This document shows positions 4,254 through 57,106 of a stretch of DNA of 64,000 nt, in pieces. Position numbers and translations under genes: made by a program. Each line of letters starts with the position of its first letter. Position 1 is the first letter of the stretch. Source of the stretch: Xanthostigma xanthostigma (lineage: Eukaryota > Arthropoda > Insecta > Raphidioptera > Raphidiidae); the NCBI GenBank assembly GCA_963575645.1, contig OY754464.1, positions 44,568,192 through 44,632,191 of the forward strand, read 5' to 3'. A model generated the notes under the pieces. It did no database searches. It saw only the letters and a program-made list of their open reading frames with translations, and had not been told where the DNA came from.

Positions 4254-4600
4254 CACTATTTATTTTCAATGTCTTCATTTTCAACTTGATCTATTTGAGG
4301 ATTGAGACAACTTTCACCATTGCATTCCGAACAAGCTGCAGTACAAGGCAATTCACGCTTTCTGCATCCACAAGCAGCTCGCGTCATTCTGCCTTACATG
4401 CACAGAAAAACAGTTGAGTAGACTTTCAGGAGCTGTTGGCTAATTTACTGTTATTGGTCTCAACATCGGTCGATCACATTATTTTCCATCCCCAGTCTAT
4501 AGTTGATATATCATTCTCCAACTATAACAGCACTTGAAAGTATACTCTTTACAAATGCTCAAAGACTGCATCAAATATGGAAACTAATACTGTCAATTGT
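4254..4600 (-). pseudogene. C-terminal tail of an XPG-nuclease (Academ-like) transposon protein
   Basis: On the minus strand, fragments in more than one frame match the tail of the protein family at 31.5-39.9 kb and 55.0-57.1 kb: a block FDAVFEHL, then RVYFQVL, LENDISTIDWGWK, MLRPITVN, PTAPESLLN, and finally a Cys-rich CGCRKRELPCTAACSECNG close to the stop. The last part is a tesmin/TSO1-like CXC motif. The piece is too short and broken to be functional. It shows that the family is present in at least three copies in this window. It is below the size that simple ORF finding would report. Confidence 0.7.
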
Positions 4601-4808
4601 AATTTTATGTGTTTAGGCGGGCCGAATTCATGACGTTTTCAAAAAAACTCAGCAACGTCTTGAGGGTCTTTCCATTTTTCAAACATTTCAGCAAACCTAC
4701 TATTCTAACCCTATTGTAAAAAAGTTATATAATGTCATATCCTGTGAATGTATATAAAACCAAATATGCTTCTTACACATAGGCAATGTATGCATCGGGT
4801 GTATTTTT

Positions 4809-7218: not shown

Positions 7219-7790
7219 TGTAACAAAACTGCTGTAGTCCGTGGCGGAAATTATTTACAATATTAACTGTTTAACAAACAGTAAAAACACACAAACGAAA
7301 GCGTATAACGTTAACAGAAATAAAACTAATAGTTCTAGATTATAAAATAAAAGACTAAGTAATAGAGAGTAAAAAGTCACTAAATTATGTACAAAGAAAT
7401 ATTTACAACACACTGGAACACAACACAGAGTTTATCAGCACACTTGTCTATTCACTATAAGTCATTTATTTAAAACCACTCACTAGAGTTATATTTATTT
7501 CCACAGATTAACTGAATTTATGTCGTAATACCAGGTCACTGTGTCAACACAACGAACAGCTCTAATAACTGACTGACAGACTTGTTCACTCTGCTTCCTT
7601 ATATAGTTTTTCGGTCCAATCTTCTAGAATGTTCGAGACGAATCGAGTTCCTTTCCTTTACATGTGTGTGAGCCTCCAAGGTCGAGTGTTCGTTACCTGC
7701 TTTCATTGTTGTTGGTTGACCTTCGAGTATTGTATAGTCTTTTCTAGAAACTCCCATAGGCGCATAACTGGGGGGGGAAATACGCAACAA
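7219..7790. repeat. Solo LTR of an LTR retrotransposon (fossil)
   Basis: A 572-bp block begins TGTAACAAAACTG and ends CGCAACA (TG...CA), flanked by the 4-bp direct repeat ATAT (7215-7218 and 7791-7794). A relative lies at 50159-50725 with its own 4-bp duplication, and truncated relatives start at 48243 and 49797. Four-bp duplications and TG...CA ends fit a Ty3/gypsy-type LTR left after recombination. Orientation is not certain. Confidence 0.7.
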
Positions 7791-7794
7791 TATT

Positions 7795-8492
7795 ATCAAA
7801 TCTCTTGAAAAGTAAGGTGCACTAACTGATGACAAATAAGGACTACATTCTAGTATAATACTTTAACATGCAATTTTAACGTGATTACGTTTTTAAAATC
7901 AACAGTAGGTACTGGAAGAAGTTTTTCTTTAAAAAATAACGGATTGAATAAAAAAAGTCCGAATTAAAGTTATTGAGTTTCGAGGGGGAAATCGTTTGGA
8001 TCAATACTCATCCCCACCACCTGATCCCATAGCAGGGGGAGGGGGTGACCTTTGTTTGATAAAAGAGGAACCCCCATTTTTTTATGGTCGGATATTGTTT
8101 TTTCGTGAAAAAAACATTTTTTGTCTGAATTTTTGTTGAATTCAGCTTGTAGTTTTTTTTACCAAAACGCTCATTAAAAAAATCACTATTAGCGATTTGC
8201 AAAAAAAAACTACAAGCTAAATTAAAAAACATTTCACAAGATGTTCATTTTCACATAAAAAAAATTCGATGATAAAAAAGTCCAGTTTTTAAAAAAACAC
8301 CCACATAAATAAATCGATGATAAAAAAAGTCCACAGTTTAAGAAAAAAACACGCCCAGTAAATAAATAATGTCCGTACCTGACGTGACCTTTGAACTAAG
8401 TAATCAGTGATTTTAATTATTTCGCAATACGACGCAATTTTATGTAACTTCACATTGCATTTAGTGAGAACTACGAAAATTGTGAAGCTAAT
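7795..8492. other. Stretch without a recognisable gene
   Basis: Contains homopolymer-rich sequence and an imperfect inverted repeat around 8115-8220 (GAATTCAGCTTGTAGTTTTT against AAAACTACAAGCTAAATT). 'CGATGATAAAAAAGTCC' occurs twice (about 8267 and 8313). No protein or RNA gene recognised. Confidence 0.4.
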
Positions 8493-29449: not shown

Positions 29450-30840
29450 AAGGCTATGGACTTAGAAATAAACAATATAGAAAAAAACAAAACATGGAAA
29501 CTAGTAGACAGGCCGATAAATAAAAAAGTGTTAGAAGTAAAATGGATTTTTAGAAAGAAAGAAGAAAATATATTTAAGGCTAGGCTAGTAGTAAAGGGCT
29601 TTCAACAAAAGGATTATATAGACAGTGTTTATTCACCTGTACTAAAGTTACAAAGTTTAAAAATATTACTCTCTTATTGTTGTCAAAATGGGTTATTAAT
29701 AGAACAAATGGATGTATAAACCGCCTTTTTAAGCGGGGAAATCATTACTGAAGTGTATGTAAATCAACCGGAAGGTTATAAAAAAGATAACGAAAAGGTA
29801 TATAAATTGTTAAAATCTTTATATGGATTAAGAGAAAGTCTAAGGTCGTGGTACCGATGTTTCAATGATTTTATGAACGAATTAGGCTTTGTAAGATGTA
29901 ACTATGATTATTGTTTGTATGTAAAGTATGATGATAAAGAATCAATATACATATTACTATTTGTTGATGACATTCTAATTTGCAGTAAAAACCAAAAAAG
30001 AATAGATGAAGTAAAACACAATTGTCTGTTCGATTCAAAGTGAAAGATATAGGCAAAATAAAAAATTATATAGGTATAAATATTGAATACGATATAGATA
30101 AAGGTAGCATGACATTAAATCAGAGGAAGTACATTGATTCTCTGTCAAAGAAATATAATTTAGAAAATGCGAAGCTATATGACACTCCTATGGAAACTAA
30201 TTTAAAATTGGATCCTGCGAGTGAACTGGATGACCAAATAAAATATAGAAATTTAATTGGGGAATTGCTATAATTATATCAGTACAGGAACCAGACCTGA
30301 TAATATTACTTTCAGCGTTAATTATTTATCTAGATTCCAAAACTGTTATGACAGTACTCATTACAAGTATGCTTTTAGAATTTTAAAGTATTTGTACAAA
30401 ACTAAAAATTTAAAACTGATATACAATAAAAATGAAAAATGCGATATTATCGACTGTTATGTGGATGCTGATTGGGCAGGAGACAGTATCGACAGAAAAT
30501 CTACAACAGGCTATGTTATAAGACTGTTTAATAATATAATTTACTGGAAAACACATAAACAAAGCTCAGTGACTAAGTCCTCAACTTTTGCAGAATATGT
30601 GGCCTTATCAGAGGCAGTAACTGATGTTAACTTTGTACGTAATATGTTAAAAGAGACATTTAGAGTAGAAGTAAATGATCCTGTAAAAATTTTTGAAGAC
30701 AACTATTGCAAAGTATGGAAATTTTACAAAAAACTCGAAGCACATCGAAGTGCAATATCACTATGTAAATGAAAACTATGAGAACGGTATTATTAATTTG
30801 ATTAAAGTAGAGTCTGAAAATAATATAGCAGATATATTCA
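29450..30840 (+). other. Reverse transcriptase and RNase H regions of the Ty1/copia fossil
   Basis: The RT opens with KNKTWKLVDRP and VLEVKWIFRKK, keeps the LVVKGFQQK block, GLRESLRSWY and the polymerase active site YILLFVDDILI (about 29950). RNase H follows with CDIIDCYVDADWAGD and KSTTGYVI (about 30440-30520). Order and motifs are those of Ty1/copia. Fossil. Confidence 0.85.
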
Positions 30841-31117: not shown

Positions 31118-31467
31118 ATATACTTACCTACAACAATTTTTTTTTCTTTTTTTTATTTTTTACATTAAATAAAAAAGTGTTTTTTCCATATTCCATAATG
31201 ATGAAAATTTGTTAACTGTAGTTATGAAATTCTTTTTAACCTAACTAAATCCTAAATTTCTAATGACCCTGAATTTGACTGACATCCGACAAAAAAAAGT
31301 TTGCCTAGAGATATCAAGAGTAAAAATAAAGTTACTGAAAACGCTCAAAATGGATGTTGTTTGGCGACTCGGCATCTTCGTGTGGTTAAGTTCAAAATAT
31401 ATTTTTTTTATAAATAACTTTTTATAATCAAAAATAATTTTGTACTGGCTCTCCAAGATTTAAGAAT
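31118..31467. other. Spacer between copia fossil and large transposon
   Basis: AT-rich with no recognisable gene. The 3-bp sequence AAT at 31465-31467 is the left target copy of the following transposon. Confidence 0.4.
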
Positions 31468-32560
31468 TAGTGGGAGCGATCTGTCGAAAAAAAACCCTGT
31501 TTTTGAAGTCGGAATAAACATTTTTTTTCCTATATTGTAGTTTAGAGTCTCCTCTATACATTAAAAATATTTTTGGTCCAGCAGGTGGTGGGGGAGGGGG
31601 GGAAATGACCATGGAAAATATGGGAAAATGAGTTTTTAGACAATAACTTTCTTAGTTGAAGTTGGACGGGAAAAACCAAGAGGTAAAAATGAAGGGCTCA
31701 AAAATACGCATAAACTGGTGTTTTGTTTTTTAAAATCGGTCCAGCGGCTCCCGAGATATCACGATTTGAATCAGCAAAACGGAGGCTGTACTTTTTTGTC
31801 GCGGATAGAGCGTCCGAGAGCCGTGTTGATTTTTTTTGCAAGGAAGAAATCGACTTAGGGACTTGAAATTTTTTTCCTCGGCAGATGGTCGGGTCCAAAT
31901 GATTGTCTGCAAATTTCAAGTCCCTAACTCGATTAGAAGGAAGGGGGGGGGGGGAAATAAAAAAAAAAATTCAAATTGACCGACTTTCTTTATTTATCGG
32001 CCGATCTCGCACAACCAACGTGACTTTATAAAGGAACATTGGAACTTTAATTTTCAATATTTTTTTTTTATTTTTCGCCATAAATAAACAAATTATGGCG
32101 AAAAAAACAATTTTTTTTTTCGAAAAAACGTGTTTTTTTCTGGGAAGGAAGGGGTGGGGGGAAAAAAATAAAGCCATTAAACGCGTTTTTTTATTATCTT
32201 TAATTTAAGACGCCATGGAATGTAATCTGATGATTAGGAAGGGCGGAGGAGACCCGCAAAGTCTTTGCCCTGTAGCGGAGCGAGGAAAAGGGTTACGGAC
32301 TTCAACCTTGGCTTATTTTCAAGGTACATCAATTGGCTTTCTAAATCTTTTAATTCGAAACCGATATCTCGATTAGGGCATGAAGGAGCGCGTGATAAGC
32401 TTATCAATTCGTATGTGCATCGCAGCCGCCGAGCAGCGAGATGCCGGGGGCGGAGTCTAGCGCTCCCTCTCCTTTCCTTTCACTTTCACTAATACTTCCC
32501 CACTCTGCGCGTCCGTGTGTAGTGCTGAGCAGGAACTTTCAGTTCAAAATTATTTTTGAC
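31468..32560 (+). repeat. Left long inverted repeat of the Academ-like element
   Basis: Matches the inverse of 39075-39914 from the outer end to CTTATTTTCAAGGTA (about 32327), then has an insert of about 190 bp with higher GC content, and matches again over TAGTGCTGAGCAGGAACTTT to about 32560. Homopolymer runs and GGGGG/CCCCC tracts give small length differences between the arms. Confidence 0.85.
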
Positions 32561-33081
32561 GTGATAACGTCTTATAAATTGATGAATCACCAATCTTATA
32601 AATTGATAAAACACCGGCTGCATGCACGAAAAAGTGTAACGTTCCTAACGTAACGTTCCTAACGTTCGTAACGCGTAACGCGTAACGTTCCACCTGACCC
32701 TGTGCGTGCTTTTCTCGAAAACGGCCCTAACGATTTGGATGAAATTTACTGAAAAGGGATTTTGGGGGGCAAAAAATCGTTTTAGCTAGGTCTCATCTCT
32801 CGAAAAAATCGTTTTCTTACAAATTTTATCATTATAAAAATCAATTTTTTGACGTATGAAAATACTTAAATATTGTAAGTAGGTTTTGGAATTTTATATA
32901 CTTAAACAATAAAACAATTGTTTTCTAAATATTATGACAGTTAATCTAATTACATCGTCTTCACGTGATTGATCTACTTCCTGGAATAACTGAGTGTTTG
33001 GATAACTCTACATCGGGGAATCGTACCACAACAGATCGAATCGCAATCACAAGTGTAAGGAGACGCAGTTACTAGGCGACT
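32561..33081 (+). other. Leader between left inverted repeat and the transposase gene
   Basis: A run of short repeats of AACGTTCCTAACG type lies at about 32635-32690. It is followed by CGAAAACGGCCCTAACGATT, repeat language shared with 12.4-12.5 kb, so another repeat inserted here. The 80 bp before 33082 look like a normal 5' UTR. Confidence 0.5.
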
Positions 33082-33681
33082 ATGGCGGAAATGCAGGTCT
33101 GTGCAATATGTACCCAAGAAATTGAAGATGGTCAATCTGTACGGATTTTGAAGACAAGGGGTTTAGCCAAGATGCGATCTGTCATCCAGAAGGACCCAAC
33201 GTACAAGCACGTAATATCACCTACCGCTGCTGAACAAACCTTTCATCAGAAATGTTACTTGACGTTCCCTCACGTTAAAACTCCCTCCAATGAAACTAAC
33301 ACCGGGCAGTCACATTGTACGCGAAGAAAAACAATACAGTTCGACTTCGATAAATGTTGCATTTTTTGTTCGGAGCAATGGGTTAGTTTGCCAAAAGACA
33401 TGGGTAGACAAAAGGTAAATCCAAGAGGACGCGTCTGTATGAAAGAATCTGAGAGCAATGTTTTTGTAGAAAAAATTCTGGAAATAGCTGAGTTAAGAGA
33501 ATTTGATGAACGTGCAGCTTTGGTTACTGATCGGATCCGATGCGCTGGTGACAATTTGGTTAATTTGGAAATAAAGTACCATGTAGCGTGTTTAAACACT
33601 TTCACGGACGGTGAAATGGAATGGCCACCTAAAAAAAATGTTTTGGCCAAGTTTTTCGTCATACATTTCCAATTATTTTAA
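33082..33681 (+). pseudogene. Academ-like protein, N-terminal zinc-binding part
   Basis: Starts MAEMQVCAICTQEIEDG; the ATG is the first in frame after upstream stops. Two split zinc sites are visible: C7-x2-C10 with H55-x2-C58, and C93-x2-C96 with H167-x2-C170 (eight ligands), which fits a Cys-rich DNA-binding head of an Academ transposase. The frame reads true to about residue 188 (MEWPPKKN), where an A8 run coincides with a shift to the next frame (33611-34711); the last residues here are out of frame. Function: probably recognition of transposon ends. Confidence 0.75.
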
Positions 33682-34711
33682 AGAACATCAGGACGTCAAT
33701 ATGGCAGGACTAAAGGACATGTTCTGCAAATTTAAAGCAATCAATTTGGAATTCGCGGAAGTTACGAATGATTGGCTTAGATTGGGATGGCCAGAGCATA
33801 TGGCAAAACAACTGTCACCTGAACTGTACGTTGTGGTGCGAAAGAAACAACACGCTATCGTCTGTCGCAGAGCATTCGCTGCTGAACTGATCAACCGTCA
33901 ATTCTTCACATCAGCAGAGGACGAAGTCACAAGAGAAAAAGCAGTCGTTTTTGAAGCGGCCAACATAATTGTTCGTGATGTCAGTAAGATGGAATTTTCG
34001 CGTGATTGTTATCCAGCTACAGACCAATTTTTTTTACATTTGGAAAACCAAATCCCCGAGACCGTACTGTTATTCTGCAGGTCATTGATTACAAGAAAAA
34101 ATTTGAACAATGAAGGGAGACTGATCATCTCGTTGGCTAATAATATTATGGTAGCAGCTAGGCCTCGTAGTACATTTTCTATTTTTCAAGTAGGTCTAGC
34201 TCTGACTCTTCATCACATGTTTGGATCGAGAAATCTAATTTCTATTCTGCATCACCTCGGGTATTGTGCTAGTTACGATGAGGTCTCTCTTTTCCAAAAC
34301 GGCGTCATTGCTGGGAAAATTAAACCTAATTTGCAACCAAACTTCTCGCATTTTGCATACGACAATGCCGATCATAACACAAATACTTTGGACGGTAAAG
34401 GAACACGTCACTGTGCGGCGGGAGTACAGTTCGTGGAACCAGGCTTATCTGCTACTTATTACCCTTTCGATCGCAATATGAGAAGATTATGTTCAGCAGA
34501 CATAGCGAAAAGAGGAGTGACGTCCCTCAAATTCTGTCCAAAAGGCAAATCTATTGGAATGCAAGGTACTGTTTTTTCTCCTCTTCCATATTTTCAGTCG
34601 TGCAATGACAGTGACATTCTTCTTGATATCAAAATGCCGGCTGAGAATTTCTTTTGGGTTTACAAGAAATCTAGCGACTCAATAACCACGCCTGGTTGGA
34701 GCTTGCAATGA
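33645..34711 (+). pseudogene. Academ-like protein, central region I
   Basis: Continues the protein in the second frame: SSYISNYFKEHQD, EDEVTREKAVVFEAANIIV, ALTLHHMFGSRNLISILHHL, then FAYDNADHNTNTLDGKGT (about 34355-34405). The DNADHN...LDGKGT block is strongly conserved in this protein family, and its Asp is a candidate for a DDE-type catalytic residue in the RNase H-like transposase core. The open frame ends near 34711, where the next overlapping frame takes over. Confidence 0.7.
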
Positions 34712-35097
34712 AAATGAGACCATTCTCAAAATCGCGAGCAATTTGTCTTCCGTTCATATCAGCCCCCCCTTCGGATTATGATACTATTTACACTACTTTA
34801 TTGGACGCAGCTGCTCGAGCTAAATCCAACAACCAGACATACGCTTTCGTAACATTTGATCAACCATTGTATGCTAAGGCTATGACCGTCCTTTTAACTT
34901 ATAAGGATTCTGGCCTGCAATGTATAAAGCTGAGAATGGGACCATTCCACCTCGCAATGTCTTATTTAGGATCTATCGGAAATATAATGGCTGGTAGTGG
35001 ATTAGAGGAGTTGATCGCAACCGTTTATGCTGGAGAGACGGTTAAACATTTAATGAGTGGCCATGCTTATTCTAGAGCAGTCAGAGCTCATACTTAA
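34696..35097 (+). pseudogene. Academ-like protein, central region II
   Basis: Third coding block: YAFVTFDQPLYAKAMTVLL (about 34840-34895), with the family's DQPLYA motif and a second candidate catalytic Asp, then MGPFHLAMSYLGSIGNIMAG and GLEELIATVY, ending with SRAVRAHT. These motifs recur in unannotated proteins of cnidarians and arthropods, by memory. A frame change separates it from the next block 12 bp later. Confidence 0.7.
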
Positions 35098-35108
35098 TCC
35101 AGGTTGCA

Positions 35109-36701
35109 ATGTCCAGGGATATATTGCGGATGATAAATTTGAGTGAAAGTGAAAGAGCTTATTTGAATTCTATCATGGATCTCGTTGGTTCTCCTACGTT
35201 CTTCGAAGAACTTGAGAAATCTGAATTCAAGAGAATTCATGATTTATTCGAGGCCAAATTAAACGAAATGGCGAGTGCACGCTCACCCACATCACGTCTT
35301 TGGATCCAGTATTATAAAATGGTCACGCTCCTTAAGAAGTTCATTGCGGCTGATCGAACTGGTAATTGGTCTGATCATCTCGACTGCATAGAGAAAATGC
35401 TTCCGATTTTCCACGCTAGTGGTCATCATATGTACGCTAGAAGTGCGCATTTATATTTGCAAGACATGCGTTCATTGGATGAAACGGAGTTTCGTGAGTA
35501 CACGCAAGGAGGAAATTTTTCTGTGAGGTTGACAGATAAGTTTTTTTGCGGGATCCCGACCGATCAGGCAATCGAAACTTGCGTCATGAAATTTTTCAAA
35601 GATCCGCGTATGGGTCTTACTCATGGTAGAGGGACGGATGATTCTGACGTTAGCAAGTGGATTGCCTGCATGCCGTTATTAATAGAGTTACAGAACAAGT
35701 TCTTCGAGTTCCTAGGGTTCAACGCTAATACCATGAGTGAACAGGGCAATTCACTTGAAAGGCATGACGATGCCGGTCTTGCTCGCATCAAACATGACGC
35801 TGTCGCTATTCAGAAATTCTCAGAATGGTTCGATTTACACTCGCCTTTCCATGAATCGTCTGCACTAATGAGTCTGTCGACTGGAATTGTTGCTGACGAA
35901 CCTATAAATTGCCACAGGGCCTTCGAAATTGGAGTCCAAAGTCTTAGAAAGATTTTTTCAAAGGAGTATGAGCAGGTCAAAATTCCTCGAAAAATCTGCA
36001 TTCAAGCCCTTGATGAAATGAGCAAAACCGTTAAAATCCACGATAAACGGGTAGCCGTTGATCCGTTGCAAATGTTTCAGCGCATTTGTTTGTTGAAGAA
36101 AAACAACGAAGATTTGGAGCAATTGTTTGAATATGAACTGTCACCTTATCCTTTGTCTCTCTTCAATAGCTTAGGAATGAATGACTCTGACAAAGCAACT
36201 CTTTATGATTTCTTCACCCCCATGGTCCATGATGTTCAATTAGACAATCCAATACATGTTATTGATGGTGGCTATTTACTCCATCGCGTTGTTTGGACGA
36301 AAGGTTTCACTTTCGACGAGATAGTAAATTCTTATGTGAGATACGTTGAAAGGCATTTTTCCTCTGAAGCTCTGGTTATTTTTGACGGGTATCCTGACCC
36401 AAATGTTTCTACGAAAAATCCAGAGCGTCTAGTGCGACTGCAGCGGAATGCCTGCACCGATTTTGCGTTTACGGGGAATATGAAGCCTCATGTGGCACAA
36501 AGTAAATTCTTGACGAATAGTATGAATAAAGAAAGACTCATTAGGATGATTGTTGTAGAAATGGAAAAGAAAAACATAGGAACACAAATTTGTTCTGACG
36601 ATGCAGATGCAATCATAGTACACACTGCATTTGATTTGTCACAAAAAAATCCGACTCGTGATACAGTAATAGTAGGAACAGATGTAGATTTACTGGTATA
36701 A
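35109..36701 (+). pseudogene. Academ-like protein, central region III and XPG/FEN1-like nuclease core
   Basis: 530 residues. The first part holds FIAADRTGNWSDHLDCIEKM and YARSAHLYLQDM, family-specific motifs. From about residue 380 the nuclease core has the acidic ladder of FEN1/XPG enzymes in order: IDGGYLLHR (D~385, as D34 of FEN1), VIFDGYPD (D~426, as D86 in FDG), SDDADAIIV (D497-D500, as E158/E160), VGTDVDLLV (D525, D527, as D179/D181). These residues bind two metal ions for phosphodiester cleavage. The frame ends right after the fourth block, while family sequence (TQLTQAKDCRLYYMFCNG) goes on in another frame. Confidence 0.75.
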
Positions 36702-36790
36702 TGACACAACTTACACAAGCCAAAGACTGCCGCCTATACTATATGTTTTGTAACGGTTTAGTATCCAGGACAACGGAAAAAAATAAGTTC
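36702..36790 (+). pseudogene. Continuation of the nuclease region
   Basis: A short block reading TQLTQAKDCRLYYMFCNGLV matches the family right after the DTDLLV motif (compare LAPHNENIMFCKRNRG in the copy at 55.5 kb). Coding similarity ends near 36770. Confidence 0.55.
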
Positions 36791-37700
36791 AGTTGAGGAG
36801 AGCATTTTTGATAGAAAGAGGTGTGAGGTTGAAAGTCGGAATAAATATTTGGATAATTGTCTAAGTTTGGTTGTCACAATTCATTAAAGTGTGAAATTAG
36901 TCAATTGGTACCATGTTGTAGATGTTCAGATTATAAGCGTGTTTTGTTATTATGGTTGAAACTGTGAAGTGACATGTATTGTGAATATAGTATCTTGTAT
37001 CTAATATTTGCGCGTTCAGTGCGATAAAATTGTGATGAAATTGAAGATAGACAAAAATTTGTTGCGTATTTGAATTTTATAAATTTGGATGTTGTTTATT
37101 GCTCATATAATTTATTTAATTTTGAATACTAGTTAATTTTAAGGATTCAATCTAATGTCATACCAGCGTTGTATTGTTTAACTTACACAGCCTTCACTGA
37201 CAAATGGTTGTACTTCAGTTTCGAATTTACGGGAAAGTTAATTAATTATTATGACATTAGGTTATATTAGATTAATATTTTTCTTACGGTGCACCGCTTC
37301 AATTCTAATATTAATTAATTTAGAAGATATTGCCTAAACGGTACCTGTGTTACTCATCGATTTTTGATAATTTAAATTTTGTTAAATATAGACCTATATT
37401 AGTTAATAATTTTTTTATTGATCTTACTCCTGTCTTTTTACTTCAGAATTATTAGGACAGATAATTCCTGAATCATTTATACATTGTGCACTGTCCTTGG
37501 CGCCCTTAAAACATCTTTAAAAGGTCAACAACAAAATTTCTTCGGGACCTCATATATTGCACTTATTATTATTACTCTGAATAGACAGGATAATTTTTTT
37601 CGTTTTCTTTAATTAGACCCTGCAGTTCTTACGACCCTCTCTACGACTGGTTTCAGCTGCCGCACATGACGTTTTCTGAAGGAATCGTCATAGTATAAAC
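36791..37700. other. 0.9 kb without coding similarity inside the nuclease gene
   Basis: Separates the acidic core from its fifth motif. It is AT-rich, contains an imperfect inverted pair (CTAATGTCATA at 37152 and TATGACATTAG at 37251), and could be an inserted element or an intron. A GT at 36761 and several AGs near 37700 exist but no splice pair is compelling. The copy at 55.4-56.6 kb has no interruption at this point. Confidence 0.5.
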
Positions 37701-37739
37701 CTGGTGTTGGTAAAGTCCCCTGTCGATATTACAATAGAG

Positions 37740-37990
37740 CGTCATTCATACATGAAGATTTACGGGAATTCATCATGTTTATTCACGCTTTCTCAGGATG
37801 CGATACAACTTCAGGGATTTTCAATTTCAAAAAAAAAAAATTTGTTAAGCTAATGACAACTAAACCAGACTTGCTAGAAGTTGCCAAGCTATATAGCTTG
37901 GCAACTTCTAGCAAGTCTGGAAAGTAGGCTGGTAATATTACCAGCCTACTATTTCCAATGCTCTATTCGATAATTCAACGGAAAATTTGT
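37740..37990 (+). pseudogene. Academ-like protein, XPG helix-turn-helix block
   Basis: EFIMFIHAFSGCDTTSGIFN (about 37765-37830) is the fifth acidic motif, equivalent to GSDY/GCDY of FEN1/XPG (D233) and the following DNA-binding H3TH turn. It continues FVKLMTTKPDLLEVAKLY and then runs into a 56-bp perfect palindrome that inverts this very coding text, followed by another of 28 bp. Confidence 0.75.
37865..37950. repeat. Two adjacent perfect palindromes (56 bp and 28 bp)
   Basis: 37865-37920 reads the same on both strands with centre CTATATAG; 37923-37950 is a second perfect palindrome centred on TAATATTA. The left half of the first is normal coding sequence (PDLLEVAKLY), so the right half is an inverted copy with no spacer. 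Confidence 0.95.
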
Positions 37991-38039
37991 TTGTCAGCAT
38001 GTATGGAAGAGAGGCACTATAAAAACAAAATCAAATTTA

Positions 38040-38676
38040 CGGCTCTTGCCCCCCACACGTGAAGTGGCGCATTTACATTCACTTCGGGTACGTTTGCAAA
38101 TGGCAAAATGGCTTATGCAACCGGCAATACCTGAAGAGTTTGGTTGGCAAAGAACACCTAGTGGGCTAATGCCAATACAAAATAGTAGACAACCTTACCC
38201 AGACTCATTGCTCTCCTCTATATCATGTGCTTGCAAGACTGGGTGTAAAAAATATTAATTGTTCATGCGTTAAATTGTCTCTAAAATGTTCAAGTCTATG
38301 TCAGAAATGTATTGGTGTTCATTGTGAGAATTGTGCCGTTTCTGAAATAATTGATGGAGATAATGATCTATTAGTGTTGCAATCCCAAGAGGGAGCTGAA
38401 GCGGAGGTTCAATCCAACCTGCCGTTGACAGTCGATGTTAATGAAGAACAAATTGATACTGGCCCGATAAACTACGCGCATGTAAACAATAGAGCGTCAG
38501 GGCTCCATGACGACGCTGGTAATTCTTCACCTTCTTCAGATGAGCCAATTACATGCAGCGATGAAGATACAGCTTGGTTATGGCAATATGAGAGTTCTGA
38601 TGACGAATTAAGTTCAAGCGATTATGAATCTGCCATTCCTGTTAAAAAAGCCCGTTACACATTTGAGCGTAGATAG
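38040..38676 (+). pseudogene. Academ-like protein, C-terminal tail with CXC zinc motif
   Basis: LPPTREVAHLHSLRVRLQMA, then EEFGWQR and PDSLLSSISCACKTGCKKY in one frame and NCSCVKLSLKCSSLCQKCIG, HCENC in the next (from about 38250), a tesmin/TSO1-like CXC arrangement of about nine cysteines that could bind DNA through zinc. A long acidic Ser-rich end follows (DDELSSSDYESA) and the stop is at 38674-38676. One frame change lies inside the CXC motif. Confidence 0.75.
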
Positions 38677-39074
38677 CAATAAATGCATTGTTAAATTTCT
38701 TATTTATATGACTTCATTTTACATTTGTATTCTAACTACGTTGTATTCGTTGTAATCATACTTGCGTTATACATCTGCATCTGTATATTATATATATGTA
38801 TATATTGAAATGTGATAAATTATTAAAATATATATTCTGTGTTACATTCATAAAATGTAGGTGTGAAACCTAACTTAAATTTCCCCGCATCTCCATTCGC
38901 CCTTCTATTGGAATATTCTAGTACCTTTTCCACGACTCGGTAATAAATTATTGAATAACATCCACGCGAAAACAGAGAGTAGCACTCAAGTATAGTAGCG
39001 GTGAAGTATAGGTCATGTTAAAAAAAAAAATGAAGTGAATCGGTTAAAAACGAGCGAGATGTGACCGATATATC
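38677..39074. other. 3' flank of the transposase gene within the element
   Basis: AT-rich sequence with AATAAA-like words (38680) and TATATA runs. No gene. Confidence 0.45.
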
Positions 39075-39914
39075 CAAAAATAATTTTGAACTGAAAGTTC
39101 CCGCTCAGCACTACCTTGAAAATAAGCCAAGGTTGAAGTCCGTAACCCTTTTCCTCGCTCCGCTACAGGGCAAAGACTTTGCGGGTCTCCTCCGCCCTTC
39201 CTAATCATCAGATTACATTCCATGGCGTCTTAAATTAAAGATAATAAAAAAACCCGTTTAATGGCATTATTTTTTTCCCCCCACCCCCTTCCTTCCCAGA
39301 AAAAAACACGTTTTTTCGCCATAATTTGTTTATTTATAGCGAAAAATAAAAAAAAAATATTGAAAATTAAAGTTCCAATGTTCCTTTATAAAGTCACGTT
39401 GGTTATCGGCCGATAAATAAAGAAAGTCGGTCAATTTGAAATTTTTTTTTATTTCCCCTCCCCCTTCCCTTCTAATCGAGTTAGGGACTTGAAATTTGCA
39501 GGCAATCATTTGGACCCGACCATCTGCCGAGGAAAAAAATTTCAAGTCCCTAAGTCGATTTCTTCCTTGCAAAAAAAATCAACACGGCTCTTACGCGACA
39601 AAAAAGTACAGCCTCCGTTTTGCTGATTCGTGATATCTCGGGAACCGCTGGACCGATTTTAAAAAACAAAAAACCAGTTTATGCGTATTTTTGAGCCCTT
39701 CATTTTTATCTAATGGTTTTTTCCCGTCCAACTTCAACTAAGAAAGTTATTGTCTAAAAACTCATTTTCCCATATTTTCCATGGTCATTTCCCCCCTCCC
39801 CCACCACCTGCTGGACCAAAAATATTTTTAATGTATAGAGGAGACTCTAAACTACAATATAGGAAAAAAAATGTTTTTTCCGACTTCAAACCTTGAGTTG
39901 GATCGATCCCACTA
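39075..39914 (+). repeat. Right long inverted repeat of the Academ-like element
   Basis: Inverse of the left arm, 840 bp, without the ~190-bp insert present in the left arm. Ends at CCCACTA, with AAT following. Confidence 0.85.
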
Positions 39915-39917
39915 AAT

Positions 39918-54962: not shown

Positions 54963-55385
54963 TTACAATAGATAATAACGTTGAAGTATCAGCTGTCTAA
55001 GAGGCAGGGTGAGAGGAGAACAGCCGATTCTACAGAAAATTGTCTTTAGAAGTTCCTCTGGGATCAGAAAGTCCTTCGTATAAATAGGCCTTAATATATT
55101 ATTCGTTACTTTCCAGCCCCATTCAGTAGCCGGTTTTATATTTCCTAGCCAATATTGTAACTGCAGGTACGTTCTATAAGAATGCTGTTCTGCTGCTCCG
55201 TTAGTGGGTGGCAATGATTCTAGCTTAAAGGACGACCTACTAGTCGATTTTACAAAGCGTCCGTACCGTAACTCAGTCAGATCTGCTGTTTCTGTCTTGG
55301 TTCTGTAAATATGCGCAATGATTTTTGTACCGTTTTCAGCAACAGTATTTTTTGGCGCATCGGCATCATACAAAATTTTGCTCAA
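54963..55385 (-). pseudogene. Second Academ-like protein, C-terminal tail
   Basis: 140 codons on the minus strand: ESLPPTNGAAEQHSYRTYLQ, LQYWLGNIKPATEWGWKVT, IPEELLKTIFCRIGC. This aligns with LPPTREVAHLHSLRVRLQ ... PDSLLSSISCACKTGC of the first element. The Cys-rich CXC motif is only begun (FCRIGC) and the frame then leaves the family pattern, so the tail is damaged. It overlaps the upstream frame by four bases. Confidence 0.7.
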
Positions 55386-56611
55386 CTTATTAAATTTTCA
55401 TTGGATTGGAATTTCTTGACGATCTTATTTTTACCCTGCATGTAGAATGAAGAAGTCGTGTCACAACCACAAAACGTGTACAAAAATCCAATTATAGATT
55501 TTAAATTTGGAAACTTGAATGACTGCGATGTGTAGTAATCGCATTCAGAACCCCTATTTCTTTTACAAAACATAATATTTTCATTGTGCGGTGCTAATTG
55601 CGTTAATATAACGAGTAGATCGGTGTCTTGGCCAACAATTGTTACTGGACTATCTATCGATAATTCAATGGCTGTTTGAACGATCAAAACGTCAGCATCT
55701 TCGTCCGCGACTCGAGTCTGTACGGCCACTTTGTTTAGTTCAAAACACAGCACTTCAATTAACCTTTTTTTGTTTTTGTTATTGCTTAAAAATTTTTCTT
55801 GAGCGATTGCAATCGTCGTTCGCAAATTAAAAACGATTTCACGACCTACGTTTTTTAATTGTCGGCGACATCTTTCGAATGATTTTGTTGAATCGACATT
55901 ACTCTCGGGATATCCATCAAAAACGACATGGCACGTCCCTCCGTATACTTTCAAAATATAGTTTACGTAGGTTCGTAAAATATTTTGAACTGTATCAGGG
56001 TAATTCCACGTAACCCGATGTAACAGAAAACCACCATCTAACACGTTCGTAACATTGGTTCGTTCGGGGATTTCTTCCAAGCGCTGAAAATTATCTAGAA
56101 AAAGTGACTTCGGAGATTTGCGCATACCGTCTTCATCAAAGAGTGATAGTGGGTAGGGAGCTAGCTCGTATTTTAAATATTCTTTCATATCATCTTGAGA
56201 TTTAATATTTAATGATATTCTTTGGAAAATCAACAGAGGATTGACCGCAACTACATCGTCATTTATTTTTACTGAAGAATTAATTATTTTTAAAGGTAAA
56301 ACTTTATTTTTCTTTTGAAATTTTATAGATTCGAAACTTTTACCGATTACTTGTGTTTGCAAAGCCAAACCGATTTCACGAGCATTATAGCAATTTATAG
56401 TTGCATCGCCTACAACTCTAGAAACAATAGATATCACAAAATCAGTGATAGGGAATGGATCATGCGTCTCAAAGAAATCTAGTAATTTTTTTCTGTCTTC
56501 GAAATCCCGGAACAATCGAGAATTACTTGTGTCTACGTGCTGCTCAGACGTCGTGTAAAAAATGTGGCAAAAATTCTCAACCTCGTTGCATACCTCTATC
56601 AAAACTATCAT
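55382..56611 (-). pseudogene. Second Academ-like protein, complete XPG/FEN1-like nuclease ladder
   Basis: 409 codons. All five acidic motifs of an XPG/FEN1-type nuclease are present in one frame and in order: NVLDGGFLLHR, HVVFDGYPESN, VADEDADVLIV, TIVGQDTDLLVIL and FLYTFCGCDTTSSFYMQGK. These match D34, FDG (D86), E158/E160, D179/D181 and GSDY (D233) of human FEN1. They would hold two metal ions for cutting DNA. The nuclease core is thus intact at motif level here, unlike the copy at 35-38 kb. Frame breaks lie upstream and downstream. Confidence 0.75.
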
Positions 56612-57106
56612 CGATAAAATATATGCAACATACGACGACCACGAGTGAGACCCCCACTACTTTTCATTGCTCTCATGAGTGCCTGTTCGATGCACATATC
56701 CGACCAAATACCACACCAGAATTTATCGGATCGTCTGATTGTAAAGTAGCCTTCATTTGCGAATTTATCGAACTCAAATCGATCCATAATATTTTCCAAT
56801 TCTAGCATATCCTGTAGGTAAATTTGACTACATAGAAATTGTGGCCAGTTGCATAGAAAAAGGGAATCATTTGCCGTACACACTCTAAATGAAGTATCCA
56901 ATTACCAGTGCGCTCCGCTTCAATATATTTTTTAACCAATTCAAAATAAAGCACCCAAAGCTTGGATGTCGGTCCATTGTCTTTGAGTAGTGTCAACTGC
57001 CTCAAAAAATGGTCTTTTACCTCACGTAGTTTCTTTTCGTACTTTTTCATACTGGTATTTGAACCTTCTTGTACACAAGCTTCTGCCAATTCTTGAAGGT
57101 CGGTAT
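56608..57106 (-). pseudogene. Second Academ-like protein, middle part, cut by a copia insertion
   Basis: Two overlapping frames hold family blocks: PTSKLWVLYFELVKKYIEAE, RTGNWILHLECVRQMIPFFY, then YLQDMLELENIMDRFEFDKF and SDKFWCGIWSDMCIEQAL. They parallel RTGNWSDHLDCIEKM and SVRLTDKFFCGIPTDQAIE in the first element. Coding similarity runs straight into the LTR at 57107, so the copia fossil interrupts this gene; its N-terminal half should lie beyond 64000. Confidence 0.75.

Follow-up and report, generated by a model that had tools for sequence, protein, structure and literature searches.

A decayed DNA transposon, very probably of Academ type, with FEN1-like acidic residues and a CXC tail in the genome of Xanthostigma xanthostigma

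A stretch of 64,000 nucleotides from Xanthostigma xanthostigma (contig OY754464.1, positions 44,568,192 to 44,632,191 of the forward strand; hereafter the window) carries at 31468-39914 a DNA transposon bounded by long inverted repeats, whose ends read TAGTGGG...CCCACTA and whose target duplication is AAT. The flanks read AAGAAT/TAGTGGGAGCG...ATCCCACTA/AATTAT, with the slashes at the borders of the element, so that one unstranded AAT copy stands at 31465-31467 and the other at 39915-39917. The left terminal inverted repeat spans 31468-32326 (+ strand), and the right one, 39075-39914 (− strand), is composed of a long arm (39112-39914) and an inner arm (39075-39114). When the two long arms are aligned, 782 identities, 18 mismatches and 62 gap columns are obtained, while the 40-bp inner left arm at 32519-32558 (+) is 98% complementary to 39075-39114. 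Both ends begin with TAGTGGGA-CGATC, the next approximately 20 bp are not inverted-repeat, and the long arm follows. Long inverted repeats and a 3-bp AAT duplication had been claimed in an earlier note made from the sequence of the window alone, and both are present.

The ends of this family are also found elsewhere in the host assembly (623 Mb in 28 contigs), in which the first 333 bp of the element gave 35 matches. Target duplications were scored in 15 two-ended copies including that of the window, leaving out the C8:20357451 pair and single-ended matches. Exact 3-bp duplications flank ten copies (AAT in the window and TAT, TTA, CTC, GGA, TAA, ACT, ATA, TAA and AGA at the others), exact 4-bp duplications flank three (TATT, CATA and CACG), and no duplication is found at the remaining two. 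Thus, 13 of the 15 agree with the length of 3-4 bp expected in the earlier note, which had also proposed a comparison of sibling termini; here the agreement is nearly complete, since the TAGTGGGA ends are retained by nearly all siblings, with one copy beginning with CAGTGGG and one without the last bases. As to size, 13 of the 14 non-window copies fall between about 1.0 and 2.4 kb, the other being about 7 kb long. The 2.4-kb copy on C6, the sole one compared in full, keeps both ends and consists of element positions 1-1092, 7441-7647 and 7645-8447; its coding part is gone, and it is an internal deletion derivative. There is no protein match within the two end loci of the 7-kb copy on C5, and searches of the host genome with 541- and 371-amino-acid protein pieces of the window found no further coding copy of the family to which the window element belongs.

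The coding region of the window copy lies in pieces on the + strand from 33082 to about 38676. It starts with a zinc head (33082-33681) of two CxxC...HxxC modules, whose ligands, counted from the ATG at 33082, are C7, C10, H55, C58 and C93, C96, H167, C170, exactly as the earlier note had placed them. A probable transposase core follows in three parts (all +): 33596-34711 with DNADHN (34361-34378) as candidate first D, 34675-35097 with FDQPLYA (34855-34875) as candidate second D and GPFH, whose H is at 34948-34950, and the beginning of 35076-36698 with TDQAIE (candidate E at 35574-35576). The same 35076-36698 piece continues into the first part of an XPG/FEN1-like set of acids, DGG at 36264, FDG at 36381, DDAD at 36597 and TDVD at 36678, and the last acidic motif, IHAFSGCDTT, is found in 37694-37927 (+; GCDTT at 37796-37810). 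Every step of the acidic ladder that had been read in the earlier note is therefore in place. Between TDVDLLV and this last motif, approximately 1 kb (36699-37690, +) is without homology to the relatives and may be an intron or an insertion. Furthermore, a perfect, spacerless palindrome of 56 bp (37865-37920, unstranded) lies within the coding region, with the frame ending just after it. The CXC tail (38226-38331, +), reading CACKTGC and CSCVKLSLKCSSLCQKCIGVHCEN in two adjacent frames, ends in CEN. Owing to frame breaks near 33650, 34705, 35090 and 38255, to the interruption by the approximately 1-kb segment and to the end of the frame after the palindrome, the window copy is unable to make a whole protein: it is dead, a decayed and probably once autonomous element.

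Relatives with intact frames are found in the same genome. The 541-amino-acid piece of the window protein has at least 81 matches, a lower bound since 80 of 256 candidates were scored, and the 371-amino-acid piece has 29. Non-window matches longer than 400 amino acids are 36-40% identical to the 541-amino-acid piece and shorter ones up to 55%, and the best match of the 371-amino-acid piece, the window itself aside, is 33% identical. Stop-free open reading frames (ORFs) of 1521, 1463 and 1449 amino acids occur in three relatives. The longest is inside an element of about 6.8 kb at C4:19.93 Mb, whose inverted repeats of about 1018 bp are 99.4-99.6% identical, and this near identity suggests that the element moved recently. 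Comparison of copies places the true ends of the C4-type element at TAGTGCAGGC...GCCTGCACTA; an inverted-repeat start at ATTAATTG, which showed no duplication, was rejected, as the element extends outward by another 30-40 bp. Flipping of the interior of C4-type elements was also considered and dropped, because copies inserted in either orientation explain the data. With its TAGTGC...GCACTA ends, the C4-type family has 3-bp duplications in four of four copies, so that the two families share TAGTG...CACTA ends and short duplications.

There are more distant and more degraded relatives. At C10:16.32 Mb, one frame-broken locus (L073 and L118) represents a divergent lineage, which has DNFDRYVE in place of DNADHN and keeps the head, the DDE residues and the XPG ladder. 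As many as 27 rows of the 541-amino-acid search match query residues 406-541 only. A stand-alone XPG family was considered for them and rejected, the one copy that was read (L092) being a 5′-truncated C5-type derivative in which two XPG acids are changed (GENVD and GCETT). A search of viral contigs found no relatives. A separate dispersed repeat (CTTATAAATTGATGAATCACC...) is located, by eye, just inside the left arm of the window copy at about 32559-32850, and is seen also beside the right end of the C4 element (L094) and beside an exon of a host XPG gene (L113).

Judged from the unbroken relatives, in which the protein is encoded by one ORF, the protein of the element was probably a single chain of approximately 1450-1520 amino acids, in the order two CxxC...HxxC modules, probable DDE core, XPG/FEN1-like nuclease and nine-cysteine CXC tail. 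Conservation was counted in an automatic alignment of four long ORFs, to which 22 fragments had been added, taken from the window and from other relatives. The numbering is that of the C4 element, and the columns listed have at least seven letters, at least 85% of them the same D, E, H or C; all counts thus include window fragments. The zinc-ligand columns range from 6/7 to 9/9. In the candidate DDE set, D425 and D428 are each conserved in 10/10, D589 in 9/10, H623 in 10/11 and E834 in 11/11, and DNADHN and FDQPLY, which the earlier note had picked out as candidate DDE motifs, recur across the relatives. Among the XPG-like acids, D1056, D1096, D1178, D1214, D1216 and D1270 are each found in 11/11 and D1176 in 10/11. 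Since relatives at other sites in the genome keep the same positions, the zinc, acidic and DDE-candidate motifs are more than chance. The ORF of the divergent lineage (L073) keeps the zinc ligands together with D425, D428, D589, H623 and E834, and stops before the XPG part in this alignment. Our proposal for the catalytic triad is D428 (or D425), D589 and E834. In the C4 protein, the span matched by the Pfam family DUF6589 takes in D589 and H623, and in the third piece of the window protein (E 0.0091) it takes in the candidate E.

To examine the likeness of the acidic ladder to FEN1, 15 family members, one ORF being represented twice, were built into a profile and compared with six FEN1 sequences from archaea and with three XPG-family pieces of the host that had been named by eye. 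The local profile score was 33.4 over 75 columns, compared with 26.7 for the best of 1000 column shuffles and 15.4 for the reversed profile. In a full-length alignment at a confidence threshold of zero, FEN1 D27, D80, E152, E154, D173, D175 and D224 pair with family D9, D49, D122, D124, D146, D148 and D201, respectively, so that all seven catalytic acids are paired, with or without the divergent lineage, and the DAD pair is in register with the EGE pair of FEN1. When the other FEN1 columns were shuffled with the acids held in place, at most five of the seven exact pairs were obtained in 300 trials, 248 of which gave none, and at most one of the seven was obtained in 300 trials with all columns shuffled. 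The FDGYP...K..ER.RR stretch aligns to VFDGEPP..K...R.. of FEN1. Addition of the divergent-lineage fragments lowered the profile score from 33.4 to 26.7 and left the seven acid pairs unchanged. At the divergent locus itself, VVVIDG, IIFDQ, HEEAD, SDTD and FTGCDYNPAFYRKGK follow in two frames, the last being close to GTDYNPGGVKGIG of FEN1, where the lineage has GCDYNPAFYRKGK; its ladder is closer to FEN1 (HEEAD, GCDYNPAF). A pattern of the XPG spacing fits 11 of the 15 members and none of 30,000 shuffles; of the four members missed, the window copy and L027 are cut short, L024 has a longer spacing and L092 is mutated. A looser pattern fits six of six FEN1 and 12 of 30,000 shuffles. Since the XPG pattern and that of the CXC tail below were designed with the members already in view, the shuffle counts for both should be taken as descriptive.

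The nine-cysteine pattern was tried on six tails, leaving out the near-duplicates L032 and L042. All six fit C-x-C-x(3,4)-C-x(3,5)-C-x-C-x6-C-x3-C-x(1,2)-C-x(2,4)-C-x-[NC], each with N, and none of 120,000 shuffles does; together with the two-frame reading in the window, this upholds the CXC tail of the earlier note. Seven of the nine cysteines passed the conservation filter. A passage of the MSL2 paper gives nine invariant cysteines with an Asn two after Cys-9 for CXC and pre-SET domains (PMC3447885), and the tails resemble the tesmin/TSO1 CXC of LIN54 and MSL2 in the nine cysteines, their close spacing and this Asn. They differ from it in that Pfam TCR is weak, with E values below threshold of 0.81 and 1.4 in two of the six tails and no match in four, and in that there is one domain per protein. 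When one tail was searched by itself against the PDB, unc-13 was the only match, with E values of 0.067 and above. The tail is absent from the ORFs of L029 and L030, and none was seen in the 2.1 kb read at the frame-broken divergent locus; the tail may therefore be lineage-specific.

Several results weigh against reading these proteins as Academ-type transposases with an XPG/FEN1-like nuclease. For the nuclease, the first hhalign run, which aligned the FDG stretch only, gave a probability of 12.6%; a run with more members gave 26% and one with the divergent lineage added gave 5%, and the global mode produced no alignment. In Pfam scans of the XPG region of 11 members, NYN_YacP and PIN_4 each matched three (best E 0.0089 and 0.026, respectively), the lowest E value, 0.003, belonged to the unrelated RestrictionSfiI in one member, and other single matches were to unrelated families. 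XPG_I, which matches six places genome-wide, matched none of these elements and none of the 11 members. Sequence and profile searches of the PDB gave no relevant match. AlphaFold models of two window proteins (424 and 230 amino acids) had a predicted local distance difference test (pLDDT) of 33 and 37, and Foldseek with the 230-amino-acid model found nothing at E 0.001 or below and no PIN domain among the 50 matches listed; its matches to ZPR1 and metallo-beta-lactamases were treated as noise. In Pfam, nothing exceeded a curated cut-off. For the core, DUF6589 is the only family with some support, in two of five proteins (best E 1.3e-5 in the C4 protein, with 24.6 bits against a cut-off of 27, and E 6.4e-4 in L073); beyond it, no DDE/D transposase fold or family was matched, NCBIfam had no match in the element proteins, and no paper on DUF6589 was found in the literature available. 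Finally, the assignment to Academ was made by traits.

As the predicted models are poor, no fold claim is made: an XPG/FEN1-like fold is unproven, and the likeness, as judged from alignments, consists of seven acids in the order and spacing of FEN1, to which the FDG-P...K/R stretch may be added. The match to FEN1 metal ligands put forward in the earlier note holds for all seven acids, above every shuffle, while the PIN/XPG fold match that was to accompany it was not obtained. The element differs from FEN1/XPG in having no Pfam-detectable similarity, in DAD at the place of EGE, and in its fusion to a transposase. Another explanation is that D-G, FDG, DAD, DxD and GxD mark a PIN/NYN nuclease not specially near FEN1, or no nuclease. 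The recurrence of NYN_YacP and PIN_4 rather than XPG among the weak Pfam matches would fit it, as would hhalign probabilities of at most 26%, the lack of fold-level proof, and alignment controls that are column shuffles with FEN1/XPG as the sole PIN family aligned. Set against these are the exact pairing of all seven FEN1 catalytic acids, which no shuffle reached, the alignment of the FDGYP stretch, and the resemblance of GCDYNPAFYRKGK in the divergent lineage to FEN1 GTDYNPGGVKGIG, so that we regard this explanation as rather unlikely.

The nuclease of AcademX transposons is XPG-like, as the earlier note also stated for Academ elements, and the ends of CACTA/EnSpm transposons read 5′-CACTA...TAGTG-3′. 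An element of the latter type would be suggested by the TAGTG...CACTA ends and the mostly 3-bp duplications of the two families. However, the polarity of the ends is opposite, three of the 13 duplications of the window family are 4 bp, no named Pfam transposase family was matched, and we know of no CACTA protein with a FEN1-like ladder or a CXC tail; the chance of a CACTA/EnSpm origin appears minimal. In the parts of the literature available, AcademX is linked to 3-4-bp duplications and a nuclease and AcademH to 9-10-bp duplications and a helicase (PMC10045372), Academ elements, classed as a DDE/D superfamily, average 5565 bp in bivalves (PMC10294476), and 3-bp duplications are given for Academ in an insect survey (PMC5199201). 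The present element shares 3-4-bp target duplications and, if the candidate domain is a nuclease, an encoded nuclease with AcademX, and differs from AcademH, of the same superfamily, in duplication length and in the absence of a helicase match in Pfam scans of the element proteins. A new superfamily, Academ-like only in duplication length and nuclease domain, would be consistent with an assignment made by traits and with DUF6589, a family of no stated function, as the only supported Pfam family. Short duplications and a nuclease are, on the other hand, both of the AcademX traits given in the portion of PMC10045372 consulted, and a new superfamily seems very unlikely. Academ being compared by description only, the element is very probably a decayed, once autonomous cut-and-paste transposon of the Academ (AcademX) type, as the earlier note had it, in keeping with the 3-4-bp duplications of 13 of 15 copies and the 3-bp duplications in all four copies of the related family.

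In Tn7, a DDE enzyme (TnsB) acts with a second nuclease (TnsA). The Academ-type element would share the idea of two nucleases and differ in the nuclease type and in carrying both in one polypeptide. The zinc head and the CXC tail could bind the ends or the target, the DDE core would join the 3′ ends to the target with a 3-4-bp stagger, and the XPG-like nuclease may cut the non-transferred strand or trim junction flaps, which is the least certain step, giving a division of labour as in TnsB/TnsA. A CXC pair of LIN54 binds the minor groove, as an excerpt of PMC4974476 states. A tentative and rather doubtful possibility is a one-protein two-nuclease machine, in which a DDE core would act on the transferred strand and a FEN1-class flap nuclease on the other strand or on junction flaps. 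A LIN54-like CXC module, gained or lost in one Academ lineage, would in this case recognize AT-rich minor grooves of the element ends or the target. If this is true, members with unbroken frames in the same genome make it testable, and the role of an XPG-type nuclease in transposition is now open to specific point-mutant tests.

In the literature excerpts available, Academ is mostly a line in annotation tables. This locus led to full-length open-frame relatives in one genome and to a map of the residues in two candidate active sites. It also brought to light a CXC tail that is present in one lineage and was not seen in a locus of another. Among the literature matches listed, the excerpts hold no description of a CXC tail or of two CxxC...HxxC modules in Academ, and no first description is claimed here.

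The window harbors two more remnants of these proteins. A second decayed relative at 55017-57074 (− strand; P0001, 424 amino acids) has a complete XPG-like ladder at 55385-56656, and the N-terminal half matching it sits just past the end of the window (L057). The third, at 4271-4605 (−), is a scrap of the C-terminal stretch only, with part of the CXC tail including CGCRKRELPCTAACSECNGESCLN. Apart from these, an ORF at 30257-30772 (+) resembles the end of a polyprotein that we take to be copia-type from its YVDADWAGD... motif.

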